64,000 bases of DNA, taken from a virus. The stretch covers positions 1-64,000 of IMG/VR virus record IMGVR_UViG_3300007276_000043. One strand, 5' to 3'. Every line of letters starts with the position of its first letter. Position 1 is the first letter of the stretch. Below the pieces are notes generated by a model. The model ran no database searches, was not told where the DNA came from, and worked only from the letters and a program-made list of their open reading frames with translations. Positions 7,611-15,577 of the stretch are shown piece by piece. Position numbers and translations under genes: made by a program.

Positions 7611-10022
7611 TTATGTTCCTGATTTTATGTGACCCTTAGCGATCATTCCTTCTAAAAGTTCAGTTGTAGCTGGACCGTCAAGTTGAATCATCATTGACTT
7701 ATCTTTGTCTTTTTCACCTGAGAAATAACCCCCAACACTATCGATGAAGCTGCCGAGGTTTCTACTCAATGCTGCACCAGCACCACCTTGGTTCATTTCA
7801 CCAGCGGCTTGACCGGTTGTAATAAGAGCCACATTAGCCAATACTGAAGATATTTTTGCACCGGATTGAGACTCTAAATTATCCAATGCTGATTGCGAGA
7901 CGCTTAGTCCTTCACCTATTGCGCTAAAAGCTGCTCTGATATCTAGTGCCATCGCGGCGACTTCTTTCAAGCTTGTTGCCATTCTTGTAACAATGTCTGA
8001 GTTTTTTCCTACACTGTTGATTATAAATCCAACGGCGGTGGCGGCGGCGGCCATTGCCGTCAAGACGCCAACAAAGACGGTTGCACCAATAGAACCAATT
8101 GTACCAAGACCTGCAAATGCTGCCGTAAGAACGCCGACTGCGCTAGCCACAAGATAAAGTCCAGCACCAAAGCCCACCATAGAGAAGCCTATACTAATAA
8201 AACTTGCATCTAATTCAGCCAAGGCCACTAATCCGTCAAATATAACTTTAAACATAAGAGCAATACTGCCTGCTATTAATGCGGCACCAATTCCCACACC
8301 TAACATTGAAAACCCAAGCGTGCCCATTGAAGCTCCAAGTGCCGCTACTTTTGGGGCTGAACTTCCGGCTACTTTACCAAATACCTTAACCATACCGGCA
8401 GCAAGAAGACCCTTTGAGGTTATAAAAATAAACCCTGCGCTCACAAGAACAGTCAAGGGGTGAAAATCTTTTAAAAAATTTAAAAACCCTGCGAACCCTT
8501 CTGCTACTTTTTTGATAAATGGTATTATAGGTTGCACATCAATTGCGAAAGCGGCCATGATTTGTTTTAATTCGTCAACAATGGACATTGCTGCTTTCAT
8601 TTTTTTTGCCATTGCTTCTGCGGTTTTATCGGCTGCTTTCTGTTGAGATTGCATATCCCTGTATGCACCCAAACTCATACCAAGAATCTTATTTGCTTGA
8701 GCCATGTCTTTAATGCCCAACTGAGCGGCAATTGCTTGTTGTGTGAATTTGTCAAGATTTTTAAAGGATGTCCCGGTTGCCTGCATTCCTTTAATAACTT
8801 CTTCAACTCTTTGTCCATGATCCATCATCATCATGTTCACGCCAGAAAAGCTTGTTCCCAAAATAGCATTCATTTTAGCTGCGGTTTGTGCCGAATCAGC
8901 AAAAGTATCAAATTTGTTTGCAATGCCCAATAACGTGTTGACTTCAACACCTGCGACTTGGGCCATTGAGGCTATCTTCATAAATACTTCTGGTGCTTTA
9001 TCACCGTAAACGGCAAGTGTAGCAAGAGAAGAATTAAACTCTTTTGTTATTTTGCTTGCGGTCATTCCAAGAGCTTGTCCCGATAAAGCAATTTCTCTTG
9101 TCAGGTTATTGGCTGCCGTTTCAGACATTCCTAAGCCTTTGGTCAAGTTGTTCAGCGTTTGTGCTGAGTCGTCTGCGGCAACGCCTAGTTTTTCAAGCCC
9201 AACAACAGTACCTAATAAATTTTGTTGCGTCGATGCTGATAATTCAGCAAATTGAGACAGTCCTGTTCTTAAGGATACTAAACCCTTACCAACGTCTTCT
9301 GCACTTACATTGAACCTTTTCATGCTATCATTTGTCGCACTAAGCATTCCATCAAACTCACGACCGAAACCAGTTGATTTCGCATAAGCTGCGCCTGCTT
9401 TGTCAACAGCGGTGGCTTGAGCTATTGTAGCTTCTGCTATTTTACTAATAATTGATACGCTAATGTTAGCAGCGTTAAATACATTTGTGAACCCTTTTGC
9501 AAGACCTTTAAGTCCACCTTCTTTCTTGGCTGCGGCTCCGAGTTCGTAAATTTGTCTTAAAAATTTATTACTGCCCTTGGATAAAAGCCCCATTTTCGTG
9601 GCCATATCTTCAAAAAACGGCTGACCTTTTCTCAGAGCCTCTTCATAGCCGGGACCCATAGCTTCAATTTCTTCTATATACTCTTTGGCGGCGTCAGCGG
9701 CGTCTTTAAGCGCAGCGATTTGGGCTCGTTGCATTTCAATTGCTTGTCTTTCAGCTTCTGTTTTCGCTTCAGTTGTTAACACGGCTTGCGCGTTAAGCTT
9801 TTCATAATCTTTTAAAAGAGTGCGAGCGGCATCAAGCTGACCAATGGTGTCACCAAAGGTTTTCGCCATTTCCATTTGTGCGGCTGTTGCTTTTGCTGTC
9901 TCTGTTGAAACTTCTTTTGTTGCTTTAAAAAGCTTTCTCATGCCCTCGGTATACTGATCGCTAGTAATCGTACCTTCAGCTTTAGCTTTGTTCAGTTTTT
10001 CAATTCTTTCAATTTCAGTCAC
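7611..10022 (-). CDS. Tail tape measure protein
   Basis: An 803-residue protein with the usual make-up of tape measures: long Ala/Lys/Glu-rich helices over residues 1-150, then Ala/Met-rich helical stretches, and a hydrophobic block at about 505-680 with several segments long enough to cross a membrane. Tape measures set tail length and are ejected ahead of the DNA. The start is GTG at 10022, with GAGG eight bases upstream; a nearby ATG is in another frame and stops after three codons. The gene follows a chaperone-type pair, the canonical order in contractile and long non-contractile tails. Confidence 0.85.
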   Translation of the reverse strand: MTEIERIEKLNKAKAEGTITSDQYTEGMRKLFKATKEVSTETAKATAAQMEMAKTFGDTIGQLDAARTLLKDYEKLNAQAVLTTEAKTEAERQAIEMQRAQIAALKDAADAAKEYIEEIEAMGPGYEEALRKGQPFFEDMATKMGLLSKGSNKFLRQIYELGAAAKKEGGLKGLAKGFTNVFNAANISVSIISKIAEATIAQATAVDKAGAAYAKSTGFGREFDGMLSATNDSMKRFNVSAEDVGKGLVSLRTGLSQFAELSASTQQNLLGTVVGLEKLGVAADDSAQTLNNLTKGLGMSETAANNLTREIALSGQALGMTASKITKEFNSSLATLAVYGDKAPEVFMKIASMAQVAGVEVNTLLGIANKFDTFADSAQTAAKMNAILGTSFSGVNMMMMDHGQRVEEVIKGMQATGTSFKNLDKFTQQAIAAQLGIKDMAQANKILGMSLGAYRDMQSQQKAADKTAEAMAKKMKAAMSIVDELKQIMAAFAIDVQPIIPFIKKVAEGFAGFLNFLKDFHPLTVLVSAGFIFITSKGLLAAGMVKVFGKVAGSSAPKVAALGASMGTLGFSMLGVGIGAALIAGSIALMFKVIFDGLVALAELDASFISIGFSMVGFGAGLYLVASAVGVLTAAFAGLGTIGSIGATVFVGVLTAMAAAATAVGFIINSVGKNSDIVTRMATSLKEVAAMALDIRAAFSAIGEGLSVSQSALDNLESQSGAKISSVLANVALITTGQAAGEMNQGGAGAALSRNLGSFIDSVGGYFSGEKDKDKSMMIQLDGPATTELLEGMIAKGHIKSGT

Positions 10023-10025
10023 TCA

Positions 10026-10376
10026 TTAACCCTCGTCTTTGAAAGGCCACAATAATCCTGTTGTATTTTCAAAGTTCTGTACTGCTGTATTTAGTTCTTC
10101 GCGAGCTTTTACAGTTTGAAAGTGTTCTTTACCATAACGAGAATAAACATCAAGATATCCCTTCTCGGCTACAATGGCTTGAGCATATGATTTAACATCT
10201 TTGTGCTTTCCACGAATAATAAATTTAGGACCGGCAGCCTCTTCTTCATTGACGTTAGCGACAACCTTAACATCGTCTCCATACATCATTTTTAATAAAG
10301 ATTTAGACCAAGACCCTAACATCTCCATCCATGTCTCTTTAAGAAGTTTCCTTTCTGATAAATCAATTACTAACAT
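10026..10376 (-). CDS. Small unknown protein before tape measure
   Basis: A 116-residue protein with no motif I recognise. It has a helical N-terminus (LSERKLLKETWMEML), a central Glu/Ala-rich turn, and a C-terminal Trp-Pro-Phe patch. It begins after an intrinsic terminator and a candidate late promoter, with GGGGAG nine bases before ATG, so it heads the operon that contains the tape measure. A tail-assembly role is inferred from this placement alone. Confidence 0.6.
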   Translation of the reverse strand: MLVIDLSERKLLKETWMEMLGSWSKSLLKMMYGDDVKVVANVNEEEAAGPKFIIRGKHKDVKSYAQAIVAEKGYLDVYSRYGKEHFQTVKAREELNTAVQNFENTTGLLWPFKDEG

Positions 10377-10438: not shown

Positions 10439-10624
10439 TTATCTTCGCTTATGAGCTTTATCTATTTCTTTTTTCTCGTCTTTGAATTGTTTTTGCAGTC
10501 TCTTTAAAAACCACAATCTTAATCCAACAGGTAAATTGTAAGCCTCCATAAAAGACCAACCACCATGATGTTTTAAAAGAAAAAACTGCTCATAAATAGC
10601 CTCAACATATTTATCGGTCAGGCC
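10439..10624 (-). CDS. gp51-like chaperone extension, read by frameshift
   Basis: These 61 codons continue the 283-residue chaperone gene in the +1 frame. The frame has no plausible start codon with a ribosome site; the first internal Met is well inside the conserved part. The product runs GLTDKYVEAIYEQFF, then LLKHHGGWSFMEAYNLPVGL and a Lys/Arg-rich tail. The short helical pattern with GGWSFMEAYNLP resembles the C-terminal parts of tail assembly chaperones. A slip on the seven-T run would give a fusion of about 340 residues. A one-base homopolymer sequencing error would give the same fusion as a single frame. Confidence 0.65.
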   Translation of the reverse strand, partial: GLTDKYVEAIYEQFFLLKHHGGWSFMEAYNLPVGLRLWFLKRLQKQFKDEKKEIDKAHKRR

Positions 10625-11462
10625 AAAAAAAGTCAGCCCCAAAGGGCACCTCCAATTCTTGCTCAAAGCCGCATGCGGTACAAGAATAGTCGTCAATAAC
10701 CTTGACATCGGGATTAACTGCTTTGTAGCAAGACCTAAGAAATCTTGAATCTCTTGTAGGTAAATTATTAACAAACTGATTAATGACTTCTTGTTCAGTA
10801 TAGCCAGCCACTGAAACAATCATTCTTTTATATTGATCTGTCAAGGCAGACTCTAATAATTTGCCTTTTGCTTTATTTGTTGAAAGTTGGGACAGATATA
10901 TTTCGTCCTTACCTTTGAGTAATTTAAAGTGTACTTCGTATTTAGACAGAGGCATTGTGACTTTAAAATTGCCTTCTGGTGTTTGACTCACTCCTAAATT
11001 TTCGTCTAATGTTGTTTCGTGAGTCTTTGTATTAGTTAGATCAAAATTAAAGTCTGAGGTGTCACCACATGCTGGGCAGCTTACTCTTGTGACGTAATCT
11101 GCTCCATATCCTGAAATACGGGCGGCGATAATAATAGCATTTCGGTCACCAACAAGCAACGAAGAGGCTTTAAAATTCTTATTTACAATTATATTATCTA
11201 AGAGCCTTTCAATAGCAATCCCTTTCTTTAGAAGCGTTTTAGAGGTTAATATATCCTCATCTTTAGCTGTCATGTAACGAATTTCAATCGTATCTTGGCC
11301 ATGCATTGGGTGACTACTATCGTAACCTAAACCCTTCGAGGGAAGATCAACAAACTCTGTTGGTGCAACAAAATGCATTGGGCTCTGAACACTTGTTGTC
11401 TCTGGGGTTGGAGCCTCTGCTTGAGGGACTGCTCCAGTTCGTCCCATATTGTTTCTACTCAA
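10611..11462 (-). CDS. gp26-like tail assembly chaperone, zero frame
   Basis: A 283-residue protein resembling the T4 gp26 baseplate family. It carries a four-cysteine metal site split between CPACG (about residue 129) and CTACG (about 261), and ends FFWPDR. The N-terminus is a disordered Pro/Thr-rich stretch, followed by EFVDLPSKGLGYDSSHPM, typical of this family. It lies directly after the tail tube genes and before the tape measure, the classic place for a tail assembly chaperone. The gene stops four codons after a seven-T run, and a second conserved frame continues there. The tube-chaperone-tape order is firm; the gp26 assignment is from recalled motif features. Confidence 0.75.
   Translation of the reverse strand: MSRNNMGRTGAVPQAEAPTPETTSVQSPMHFVAPTEFVDLPSKGLGYDSSHPMHGQDTIEIRYMTAKDEDILTSKTLLKKGIAIERLLDNIIVNKNFKASSLLVGDRNAIIIAARISGYGADYVTRVSCPACGDTSDFNFDLTNTKTHETTLDENLGVSQTPEGNFKVTMPLSKYEVHFKLLKGKDEIYLSQLSTNKAKGKLLESALTDQYKRMIVSVAGYTEQEVINQFVNNLPTRDSRFLRSCYKAVNPDVKVIDDYSCTACGFEQELEVPFGADFFWPDR
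10625..10631 (-). other. Candidate programmed frameshift site (T7)
   Basis: In mRNA sense the zero frame reads GAC TTT TTT TGG CCT GAC CGA TAA. A +1 or -2 slip lets the Phe tRNA re-pair perfectly on the seven-T run and enter the frame that starts GGC CTG ACC GAT. Mu-type phages are known to use a -2/+1 slip at the equivalent chaperone gene. No clear downstream stimulatory structure was seen. Confidence 0.55.
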
Positions 11463-11479: not shown

Positions 11480-12016
11480 TTATTTTTCTGTTGTCGCATA
11501 ATCATAAGCGACAGTTATTTCTATTGAAACCAGGTCATCGCTGCTATAATCTAAATCGCCATAATTAACAGACTTAATGAATGAATTTACCAATGTCCAA
11601 GTTCTTAATGTAGTACCATCGTCCTTCATTTGTTCTATTACAAAATTAGATACTTTTGCAGCAGCGGTGGTGGTGGCGGCTACTCCGGCGGCGGCGGGGG
11701 TGGTTTTTTTCTTTGTAACTGATTCTATCTTTAAAATCCCCTCCTCTTGGAGAAAATTAAAATCTTTAGAAACCAACACCTTTTTAACTTCTTCAACAGC
11801 GGAAGCAACATCGACAATACTAATGGTCACATCATTCCAAGTGGGTACACCAGGATACTTAAACTTTTGATTTAAAAGTTGATATTCATTAGTATTGATC
11901 TCAAATGAAGGCAAAGTAACAGAATTAGCGTACCACCAATTGATATTCTGAGTTGTTCCTACTTTAAATCTGTATTTTCTTGCGGGACTTGCGTCCTTGT
12001 TACTCCAAAAAGCCAT
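11480..12016 (-). CDS. Tail tube protein, gp19-like copy B
   Basis: A 178-residue tail tube protein. MAFWSNKD at the start, WWYANSVTLPSFEI, a PGVPTWNDVTI strand, and the ending VNYGDLDYSSDDLVSIEIT match the gp19 family, whose hexamers stack to form the tube inside the sheath. It is clearly a paralogue of the gene just upstream (12034-12585). It differs by an Ala/Thr-rich insert near residue 105 (TPAAAGVAATTTAAA). Both copies keep the LDYSSDDL segment near the C-terminus. Confidence 0.85.
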   Translation of the reverse strand: MAFWSNKDASPARKYRFKVGTTQNINWWYANSVTLPSFEINTNEYQLLNQKFKYPGVPTWNDVTISIVDVASAVEEVKKVLVSKDFNFLQEEGILKIESVTKKKTTPAAAGVAATTTAAAKVSNFVIEQMKDDGTTLRTWTLVNSFIKSVNYGDLDYSSDDLVSIEITVAYDYATTEK

Positions 12017-12033
12017 TTAAACCTCTTATTGAA

Positions 12034-12585
12034 TTAACTTTTAGCTTCAAATCGTGTATCTGCACCGGCACCGCCAGTACAAGTTGCCCAATCATAACGA
12101 AGAGTCATATCAATTTGTTTCAAATCGTCGCTACTATAGTCTAGATCGCCAAACTTAGCAGACTTAATGAACGGATTTTTCAATTCCCAAATTTCAATTT
12201 CTTTTCCTTCAGCGTCTAAGACTTCAATCTTAACCAATCCTAAGCCAGCGGCTTTCTTCTTGGAAATAGAAGGCTTGTTTGCTGCGGCACCTTCGTTTGC
12301 AGGTACGATATATCCACTGTCTACAAGCATCTTATTTAATAAGTCGGTTGCATCGGGAGAAATAGGATCAACAAGAGTCAATGAGACCTCTGACCAAGAG
12401 ACTCTCCCTGGGAAGTAATATTTATTATCCATATGATTGTGTTCAACTTCTGAAACATCAAATGAAGGAAGAGTGGCTGTTTTTGCCCACCATACGATAG
12501 AGTTAGCTTGTCCGAAAGGGATCATAGTAACTTTAAATCTATAATTTCTTTTTGCCTCTGATGTGTGGCTGCTCCAAAATGCCAT
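12034..12585 (-). CDS. Tail tube protein, gp19-like copy A
   Basis: A 183-residue gp19-type tube protein, immediately downstream of the sheath gene as in T4. Key segments are MAFWSSHTSEAKRNYRFKV, WWAKTATLPSFDVSEVEHN, FPGRVSWSEVSLTLVD and the ending KFGDLDYSSDDLKQIDMTL. It is preceded by AAGGAG. Two tube-type genes in tandem suggest either a tube built from two subunits or one copy serving as a tube terminator or initiator; the sequence does not decide which. Confidence 0.85.
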   Translation of the reverse strand: MAFWSSHTSEAKRNYRFKVTMIPFGQANSIVWWAKTATLPSFDVSEVEHNHMDNKYYFPGRVSWSEVSLTLVDPISPDATDLLNKMLVDSGYIVPANEGAAANKPSISKKKAAGLGLVKIEVLDAEGKEIEIWELKNPFIKSAKFGDLDYSSDDLKQIDMTLRYDWATCTGGAGADTRFEAKS

Positions 12586-12625: not shown

Positions 12626-15577
12626 CTAGAATTGAACGCCTGATCTTGTGATAACAAAATCAATTGCAATAAATTCTATTGCTCTTGCTGGCTTGACGAA
12701 AATCTTAGCATATAAAATGTTTTGATCAACCAAAGAAGGTGTCGTAGTTGTTTCGTCTAGAATAAGCTTGTATTCTGTGATTCCAAATCTTGCTTGGACA
12801 TCAGCCAAGATCAAATCAGCACTTGACTTGAAACGTGACCATGTTGCTTGAACATTTTGATCAAAAAGAATAGTATCTGCAATTGCTCCAACTCTCTTCT
12901 TGAGGTAAATCATCAATCGTCTTACATTGATCCTGTCCAATGCGGAAGGAGTTTGTTGCAGTGTCTTCTGACCGAAGATTACAATTTCTCCAACTGCTGG
13001 GAATCGTGCGATTGGGTTGATATTTAATTCATATAGTTCATCGCGATCTGCTTTTGGAAGGTTCTTCCAAGTTCCGACAACGCGAGGGCCGTCATTTCCA
13101 CCAAGGATAGAGATACCACCACGATTGAACCCAGCAGGTGCGAACCAAGGTCCTTCTGAATTTGCGTCAGAGAAAGCCAAAGCTCCAAGGCCAGCTACAG
13201 AAGCAGGAGCGACAAATACATCACCGTTTCCAGAAAGTGTATCGCGCATACGAACTCTTGGGTAGTAAGTGGCTGCGTAGCTAGTGTTTAAATCTCTAGT
13301 GCGAGCAGTGGCTTTAACATCATTAATTGAACCACCGGTTCTTGTACCTGAATTTTCGTATGTTTCTTTGTATTCATCATCCAAATCAATAATCGCTAAT
13401 GCATCGCCACGATCTTCAACGTCGGAAAGTAATTGATTACTTAGTGCTGTGTTTGTGAGGCCAGGAATAGAAACAACATCATAAGCTACTACTTCACTAT
13501 CTGATATAGAATCAATTGCTTTCTTAATTGAATAATTAGCATAGTGCGTAGTGTCATCGCGACTAGTAACATCTAAAACATTTTTATTTGAAAATGGATC
13601 TACTTGTGTTATATCAAGACCGTCAAATCCACCAAACATTGGAAGAGCAAACTTGCGAACACCGTCAGTCAATAGTGATTGTGATCCTGAAGCTGCTGTT
13701 TCGGCATGACCGGTTGCATGAGACCCAGAGGCCCAATAAAATTTACCATCAAGTTTTCTAACTTCATCTAAAGAAAATACAAAAGAATATTGTGTTGCAT
13801 CAGCAGCATTGTGTAGATCTATTCCACCGCCTTGGTAACGAAGTAGATCAATATAACTTCTATCACTTAAAGTATTTCTTTCGTTTTTAGAAGCAAACTT
13901 GTGCTTTAATCCAAAAAGATCTTTTGCAAGGTAATTTGAACCAGCCCTTGCTGTATTTTGTTCTGTTAATTTTAATCTTGGAGTAGAGAAAGACATTGTT
14001 AATTCCACTGTTGCGTCTTCCGTTCCGAGACCGTAGAAAATAGCATTAGCTGCGTCTCCACTAAAATAAGGAACACCAGCGGCGGCAGCTTTAGCATAAA
14101 GACCAGTCGCTGCTGTTGCGTTAGCAAGTAATGTACCTTCGGGAAGAAGATTTGCACCACTACCAGAAACAATAGAAAAACCTTTTTGATGGACTGGGCC
14201 AAAGAATCCCCAAGGAATCTTGTATGCATCATCGATTGTAGCTTTCCAGTCATCAGCCATTTCTATACGAATGTAATCTGATTGATTTGGATACTCTCCA
14301 TATAATTCATACCGCTCTTTGTTATTGTCCCAGGTTTGAAATTGATCGCCTAATCTCTTTCCTACAAAGTCTTCTGAGGATTCGTCAAGGTTTAGGTTTG
14401 AAAATTGCTCTACTATATCGTCATTTAAGTTACGAACTGTGATTGAAAAAGATGAATTTGGATTCTTAACTGATCCGAGTTGTAGATCTTCAACTGCAAT
14501 ATAGTAATTTTTCTCAAACCAATCGCCTTCACTTAGAGCAACCAAACGAAAAAGTTTTGATTGCTTATCAGAAGCAAAGTTTGCAGTATCTACTGTGGGA
14601 GCAGGATCACGATTGATGACCCAACCGGTCTTTGAGGTAGTTGCTTGTGCCGTGTGGTATAACAGGTTATTGGCAGCAAGCGAACCTGATTGCAATGGTA
14701 GCAATAAACCATATTGTTGACCAGCGGTGGCGGCTGTGCCACCTGGGCTTGTTATCAAGCGGCTAACTGCTTCTTCATATGTTTCTCCAACAAAATAATT
14801 TTTTGCCTGACCAGCAGCAAAATTAGTTGAATAGGTTTTTTGCGGATTTGTGTTTAAAACATTTCTAATATAGTTTGTTTTCTCATCTGGGTCTAGGTGG
14901 AATACCAATGATTCAGCAGGACTCCAAGATGCAGGGGCAACGGCAGCAGCATCAGTTGATACTTCTATTTTAAAGGTTGCAGGTTTTCCTGCTGTTGAGA
15001 TAGACTCAATAAGGGCACCAGCGGAAGAAGTAGTAACTGTTCCACCAGTACCTGCTAGAGTTCCACTTAAAGTAAGTGCCGAACCTGTTGTATAAAAAAC
15101 TGCCGCTAGTGTTCCATTAAGCTGCGAGCCTCCGGAGCCAGAAGGAACTATAAATAACCCATAAGCAGTTCCATTAGACGCTGGGGCCGCTTCTAAGTCT
15201 GCGCCTCCAAGATCCCAACCAGCTTTAACATAGCCGTCGGCTTGGCTTGGTGAATCTTCACCAAGAAGGCGCACAAATGTAACAGGAGATGTGTTTGATG
15301 CCAACCATGCTTGGGCAGCATACATCGCATATGTAGGGCCTTGGTTGTTACCATCACGCCAAACATCATCATTGATTGTGCCTTTGCCACTAACTGGCTT
15401 TCCAAATACATCAGTGAAATTTTCTAAACTATTAACCTTAATCGGCTTGAGAGCCGGTCCACTTGGTGAACGGCCAATAACTAATAAACCATCGTCTTGC
15501 AACGGAGCTTCAATTTTACTCTGATCAATCTCTGTGATCTGAACTCCAGGTGAAACGAAATCAAACTTTCTAGGCAT
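12626..15577 (-). CDS. Tail sheath protein, gp18-like
   Basis: A 983-residue contractile sheath protein. The N-terminus FDFVSPGVQITEID and the C-terminal 100 residues (INVRRLMIYLKKRVGAIADT, then ATWSRFKSSADLILADVQA) are the conserved inner-layer parts that hold neighbouring sheath rings together. T4 gp18 has 659 residues, so about 320 extra residues sit in the middle, probably as surface-exposed domains. The gene follows the gp15-like stabiliser and precedes the tube genes, as in T4, and has its own candidate late promoter. Confidence 0.9.
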   Translation of the reverse strand: MPRKFDFVSPGVQITEIDQSKIEAPLQDDGLLVIGRSPSGPALKPIKVNSLENFTDVFGKPVSGKGTINDDVWRDGNNQGPTYAMYAAQAWLASNTSPVTFVRLLGEDSPSQADGYVKAGWDLGGADLEAAPASNGTAYGLFIVPSGSGGSQLNGTLAAVFYTTGSALTLSGTLAGTGGTVTTSSAGALIESISTAGKPATFKIEVSTDAAAVAPASWSPAESLVFHLDPDEKTNYIRNVLNTNPQKTYSTNFAAGQAKNYFVGETYEEAVSRLITSPGGTAATAGQQYGLLLPLQSGSLAANNLLYHTAQATTSKTGWVINRDPAPTVDTANFASDKQSKLFRLVALSEGDWFEKNYYIAVEDLQLGSVKNPNSSFSITVRNLNDDIVEQFSNLNLDESSEDFVGKRLGDQFQTWDNNKERYELYGEYPNQSDYIRIEMADDWKATIDDAYKIPWGFFGPVHQKGFSIVSGSGANLLPEGTLLANATAATGLYAKAAAAGVPYFSGDAANAIFYGLGTEDATVELTMSFSTPRLKLTEQNTARAGSNYLAKDLFGLKHKFASKNERNTLSDRSYIDLLRYQGGGIDLHNAADATQYSFVFSLDEVRKLDGKFYWASGSHATGHAETAASGSQSLLTDGVRKFALPMFGGFDGLDITQVDPFSNKNVLDVTSRDDTTHYANYSIKKAIDSISDSEVVAYDVVSIPGLTNTALSNQLLSDVEDRGDALAIIDLDDEYKETYENSGTRTGGSINDVKATARTRDLNTSYAATYYPRVRMRDTLSGNGDVFVAPASVAGLGALAFSDANSEGPWFAPAGFNRGGISILGGNDGPRVVGTWKNLPKADRDELYELNINPIARFPAVGEIVIFGQKTLQQTPSALDRINVRRLMIYLKKRVGAIADTILFDQNVQATWSRFKSSADLILADVQARFGITEYKLILDETTTTPSLVDQNILYAKIFVKPARAIEFIAIDFVITRSGVQF

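Follow-up and report, generated by a model that had tools for sequence, protein, structure and literature searches.

A probable +1 programmed frameshift joins the gp26-like and gp51-like parts of a tail assembly chaperone in a clade of T4-related phages

The DNA analyzed here (the window) is a stretch of 64,000 nucleotides that comprises positions 1 to 64,000 of the viral record IMGVR_UViG_3300007276_000043, itself a fragment of 76 kb. Its minus strand carries tail genes in the order sheath, tube, tube, ORF1, a 116-aa open reading frame and a probable tape measure gene, with the following features.

12626 to 15577, minus strand: tail sheath protein (phrog_23, 4.4e-56)
12034 to 12585, minus strand: tail tube protein (gp19-like), copy 1 (PF06841, 0.0013, below the cut-off of that family)
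11480 to 12016, minus strand: tail tube protein (gp19-like), copy 2 (phrog_4542, 3.6e-22; PF06841, 5.8e-7)
10611 to 11462, minus strand: ORF1, gp26-like (PF12322), predicted short chaperone form (TAC-N), 283 aa, TTG start with AGAGGTG upstream
10649 to 10653, minus strand: internal Shine-Dalgarno-like GGAGG, candidate stimulator, 17 nt upstream of the first slip codon
10625 to 10631, minus strand: putative slip site of seven T (T7), codons TTT (10631-10629) and TTT (10628-10626), then the T of TGG (10625-10623)
10611 to 10613, minus strand: 0-frame TAA stop that closes the short form
10439 to 10624, minus strand: second (+1) frame, predicted T domain of the long form (TAC-NC), GLTDKY...KRR, 61 aa plus stop
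10026 to 10376, minus strand: 116-aa open reading frame between chaperone and tape measure genes, without a Pfam or PHROG match
7611 to 10022, minus strand: probable tape measure protein, 803 aa, assigned by position, length and a weak phrog_10613 match (E 0.0088)

ORF1 thus occupies the place of a tail assembly chaperone, between the tail tube and a tape measure gene whose own profile match is weak, and the original prediction had likewise put it just ahead of the tape measure region. The two tube genes are adjoining gp19-like paralogues (11480-12585), the downstream one with a GC-rich insert rich in Ala and Thr at about 11650-11720, and the sheath protein (12626-15577, 983 aa) has, between its conserved N- and C-terminal parts, a long middle stretch that is unmatched in named phages.

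The 3' end of ORF1 reads GAC TTT TTT TGG CCT GAC CGA TAA on the minus strand, so that the gene does end four codons after the seven T, at the stop of 10613-10611, as had been noticed from the sequence. The frame one base forward, which is equivalent to two bases back, is open across the slip site, encodes FFGLTDKYVEAIYEQFFLLKHHGGWSFMEAYNLPVGLRLWFLKRLQKQFKDEKKEIDKAHKRR and reaches a stop at 10441-10439; the sequence TTTTTTTGGCCT occurs once in the 64 kb, both strands counted.

Profile comparisons identify ORF1 and the second frame as the gp26/gp51 tail assembly chaperone pair of a T4-superfamily myovirus, with ORF1 as the counterpart of gp26 and the second frame as that of the gp51 C-terminal domain. 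ORF1 matches PF12322 (T4_baseplate) at 4.8e-15 and 56.3 bits, above the family cut-off of 24.5, as well as phrog_150 (baseplate hub) at 4.3e-18. The same Pfam family covers T4 gp26 (8.8e-64) and residues 1-201 of T4 gp51 (3.9e-52), after which about 45 residues of gp51 remain; the cyanophage proteins named 'gp51' or 'baseplate hub assembly catalyst' consist of the small C-terminal domain only. In hhalign comparisons, the T domain of cyanophages matches both that of the window (P 5e-8, probability 95%) and the T4 gp51 C-terminus (P 4e-9, 96%). When the window T domain was aligned directly with just the C-terminus of T4 gp51, the match was not significant, so homology to gp51 is drawn through the cyanophage intermediates. 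The fused window protein scores hardly better than ORF1 alone on phrog_150 (67.4 vs 66.7 bits), and this profile is therefore blind to the T domain.

Structure predictions are consistent with this assignment. ORF1 and the second frame were folded separately with AlphaFold, each as a plain translation, giving pLDDT 90 for ORF1 and a three-helix T domain at pLDDT 89. Foldseek matched ORF1 to baseplate hub proteins of T4-like phages, that of SP-15 among them. The top-probability match listed in a PDB fold search of ORF1, the HK97 tail assembly chaperone 2ob9 (0.47, E 0.71), was not significant, nor were the weak matches of the T domain to P-HM1 gp51 and to proteins named tape measure chaperone or tail assembly chaperone. 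Two further sets of matches were taken as chance: a PDB sequence search of the family returned only a de novo protein (E 0.025), and the T domain gave Staphylococcus phage matches (E 0.1-1). In T4, gp26 and gp51 are described as hub assembly chaperones and gp51 is not in the particle, an absence that fits a chaperone reading (PMC3004832). PF12322 was found only in ORF1 across the 76-kb record, with no second copy and hence no fused duplicate there; a second gp51-like gene could lie elsewhere, since the record is a fragment.

The frame relation was then compared across relatives collected by four IMG/VR scans, which used as queries ORF1 of the window, ORF1 of phage Mel-JY01, ORF1 of phage immuto, and the second domain alone without the slip site. 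Together with the two isolates, Microcystis phage Mel-JY01 and Flavobacterium phage immuto, the scans yielded 319 loci, of which 261 differ from one another over 300 nt. The T domain lies in the +1/-2 frame in every locus, both isolates included, and neither a fused T domain nor one in the -1 frame was found among the 261 distinct loci (0/261 in the -1 frame). In each of the 261, an extension in another frame overlaps the end of the gene and meets it at a conserved slippery site close to the 3' end, and the 0-frame stop is preceded by 3, 4 or 6 codons from TGG on (TGG included) in 260 of them and by 8 in one. By this comparison the frame relation is established, and an arrangement shared by so many distinct loci, always with the same relation, is far beyond chance. 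Selection on the second frame points the same way: pN/pS is 0.10 in the T frame compared with 1.3 and 2.9 in the other two, indicating that the +1 frame is under purifying selection as coding sequence. The clade is a large one, made up of T4 relatives from marine and fresh waters. In one member (IMGVR_UViG_3300043908_006583) the second frame is only 49 aa, against 62 in near-identical relatives, which is either a contig-specific frameshift or an error.

The sequence at the junction is similarly constrained. With the two slip codons and the base that follows them written out, the 261 sites are TTTTTTT (215), TTTCTTT (37), TTTCTAT (4), CTTTTTT (3) and TTCTTTT (2), and each of them keeps UUU followed by U or C, a regularity referred to here as the 'UUU-Y rule'. 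The slip codons are nearly without synonymous variation (TTT:TTC of 256:2 and 220:0), compared with 171:66 at a control conserved Phe column elsewhere in the same alignment and with entropies of 0.74-0.95 bits at other two-fold codons. The 0-frame Pro codon is CCT in 256/256, a constancy to be expected of a codon whose bases also specify Leu in the second frame. Among named phages the site reads AAC TTT TTT TGG in Mel-JY01, AGC TTT CTT TGG in immuto, AAC TTT CTA TTC in the 484-kb LR756508 and CTG TTT CGC in Streptomyces phage BRock. No downstream RNA structure was detected at the slip site (z -0.31). A different candidate +1 site is seen in SP-15, LIS04 and GXN1, phages of Bacillus, Listeria and Streptococcus respectively, where a shared NCC CGA TTY precedes a T domain in the +1 frame.

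The original prediction had left the shift at +1 or -2, and on T7 itself both do pair: a slip of two bases back, as in Mu, reaches the same frame with perfect re-pairing of the second Phe codon, and would give DFFFGL instead of DFFGL. The direction assigned to the window therefore rests on its relatives. At 261/261 sites at least one of the two codons allows tRNA-Phe to re-pair perfectly after a +1 shift (UUU to UUU or UUC), whereas 43 of the 261 (TTTCTTT 37, TTTCTAT 4, TTCTTTT 2) cannot re-pair two bases back and yet retain the frame relation. On a tree of ORF1 from which the slip columns had been left out, parsimony requires at least 11 changes in the type of slip site, and the variants that break -2 pairing have more than one origin. 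A Mu-type mechanism, which calls for such re-pairing at all homologous sites, is accordingly the wrong analogy, and -2 slippage is an improbable account of the window as well; the shift is read as +1.

It is about equally improbable that the T domain is translated as a protein of its own, from a start within ORF1 or through re-initiation beyond its stop. The window does offer what such a start would need, as the TTG at 10642-10640 is in the second frame and 6 nt after GGAGG (10653-10649), so the description of this frame as lacking a usable start did not strictly hold for the window. It holds for most of the relatives in which this was scored: that place is without a start codon in 93 of 131 loci of the window clade, and 55/261 loci have no ATG, GTG or TTG anywhere upstream in the open T frame. 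The internal element itself is under selection in the window clade, pairing with the anti-Shine-Dalgarno sequence at -8.4 kcal/mol vs -3.6 for synonymous shuffles, but it is no weaker where the start codon is missing: the mean is -8.67 in those 93 loci and -7.82 in the loci that have a start codon. These energies were computed with the E. coli anti-Shine-Dalgarno sequence as a proxy for that of the actual host, though several window genes have clear Shine-Dalgarno sequences. Independent initiation would also lose the conserved FFGL and the residues that follow it, which are encoded ahead of the first in-frame ATG of the window, and leaves the synonymous freezing of TTT TTT unexplained.

Because GGAGG is equally strong where no start codon follows, a part in pausing or in stimulating the frameshift is likelier for it than one in initiation, and it is suspected of stimulating the shift. 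Its distance from the slip codon is longer than in familiar cases: the Shine-Dalgarno element lies about 3 nt upstream of the shift codon in release factor 2 and about 10 in dnaX, compared with 17 nt for the strongest such element of the window clade. We know of no other +1 shift with a Shine-Dalgarno-like stimulator 17 nt upstream.

Two alternatives place the change of frame outside the ribosome. Slippage of the polymerase on T7 would yield a mixed mRNA population in which edited messages, read normally, give the long form, and seven T are in principle long enough for this; however, the run is broken in 43 loci (TTTCTTT, TTTCTAT, TTCTTTT) with an unchanged frame relation, which excludes transcriptional slippage as the general mechanism and makes it very improbable here. 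A homopolymer sequencing error within one continuous gene, the rival named at the outset for a single-base difference in one metagenomic contig, can be dismissed, as contigs of other metagenomes (L001, L002) have the identical site, 261 distinct loci that include two isolates have homologous ones, some of them without a homopolymer, and no fused relative was found.

The reading preferred here, that of a tail assembly chaperone made in short and long forms, the latter by a +1 programmed frameshift at UUU-Y, is very probably correct on the comparative evidence; a programmed frameshift in this gene, as first proposed, is the best reading of the out-of-frame extension in 261/261 loci and of the frozen slip codons. 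We infer both the ribosomal shift at this site and the role of the products as chaperones. In the proposed mechanism, most ribosomes would terminate at the TAA of 10613-10611 and release the 283-aa gp26-like form (TAC-N). A fraction would slip forward one base while tRNA-Phe is on a UUU with U or C after it, re-pair perfectly at UUU or UUC, and resume reading at GGC CTG ACC. The resulting 340-aa form (TAC-NC, equivalent to T4 gp51) would end in the helical T domain. By analogy with the G/GT paradigm of lambda, both forms may coat the tape measure, the T domain may recruit tube subunits, and neither would stay in the virion.

This proposal resembles several known systems in part. The G/GT system of lambda and its counterparts in P2 and Mu share with it the gene position, the two-form logic and the C-terminal extension by frameshift, but no sequence relation of their chaperones to that of the window was found; lambda and P2 shift by -1 and Mu by -2. 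A +1 shift is very likely in the tail chaperone of another phage, HSTV-2, and one occurs in a tail gene of Listeria phage PSA, but on a proline codon (PMC5009743). The shift codon itself is of the YUU_U type used by release factor 2 (prfB) in 257/261 loci, the other four being TTTCTAT sites where UUU_C serves; 37 sites offer a CUU_U shift as an alternative, and CUU_UGG (36 loci) resembles the CUU_UGA of release factor 2. The difference is in the A site, where release factor 2 has a stop codon and the 261 loci have a sense codon, UGG or UAC, and not a stop. In release factor 2 the site is CUU_U, or UUU_U in a minority, and in E. coli tests UUU_U shifts much less than CUU_U, so the efficiency of the shift proposed here may be low (PMC5009743).

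The closest comparisons lie within the family itself. In Kyanoviridae and Pootjesviridae (P-SSM4, S-CAM1, Syn19, RHph_Y68, Atu_ph04) the same two domains are present and the T domain is likewise out of frame right after the gp26 end at a poly-T site, but the site is a classical -1 heptamer, T TTT TTC (or with TTT or TTG as its last codon), and the T domain is in the -1 frame. A scan started from P-SSM4 gave 80 cyanophage-type loci, 79 of which have T TTT TTC, and in none of these 79 is there a start codon upstream in the T-domain frame; the combination of T TTT TTN with a T domain in the -1 frame is found in 79/80 of these loci and in 0/261 of the +1 clade. T4 and 44RR have gp26 plus a separate gp51 with its own gp26-like domain, so that T4 uses two genes, a short gp26 and a gp51 that is a duplicate fused to a T domain, without a frameshift, whereas the +1 clade has one gene and a proposed +1 shift. 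Thus, by sequence, the long form appears to be made by -1 slippage in cyanophages, by duplication and fusion in T4, and by a +1 shift in the clade analyzed here.

Parts of this picture have precedent. Papers that cite Vladimirov, Gautam and Davidson (2022) credit that work with the chaperone identity of T4 gp26/gp51 and with poly-T -1 signals in the TAC genes of T4-like phages (PMC10885494, PMC12846349); going by these citing papers, the chaperone identity, the duplication and -1 shifting were published previously and are not claimed as new. No description of the +1 branch, the UUU-Y rule or the distant Shine-Dalgarno-like element was found in the open-licence literature searched. It can be proposed, tentatively, that one homologous chaperone family obtains its long form by -1 shifting, +1 shifting or duplication, which might make shift direction evolutionarily interchangeable, and that the +1 branch is set apart by a stop-independent UUU-Y rule, two alternative slip codons and a conserved Shine-Dalgarno-like element 17 nt away.

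The long form is unannotated or split in this clade: immuto has no gene call for the T domain, and Mel-JY01 has two hypothetical proteins. The T domain is also without annotation in S-CAM1 and LIS04, and in P-SSM4, Melnitz-3, C48C1 and Syn19 it is entered as a small gene of its own, called gp51 or hypothetical, whose start is inside or downstream of the shifted frame; records with a missed or split T domain include NC_055915.1 (3708-3960), KU686192.1 (1914-2099) and OQ999172.1 (2702-2933).

If the proposed shift is correct, frameshifting in tail chaperone genes would also cover a large clade of T4-superfamily phages, most of them uncultured, and a single gene family would contain a natural contrast of -1, +1 and duplication solutions, together with a +1 site in several hundred naturally occurring versions, ready for use in reporters. 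G-T frameshifting has been described as widespread except in T4 (Atkins et al., 2016, PMC5009743), and the relatives analyzed here suggest that this exception belongs to the T4 lineage and not to the gene family.
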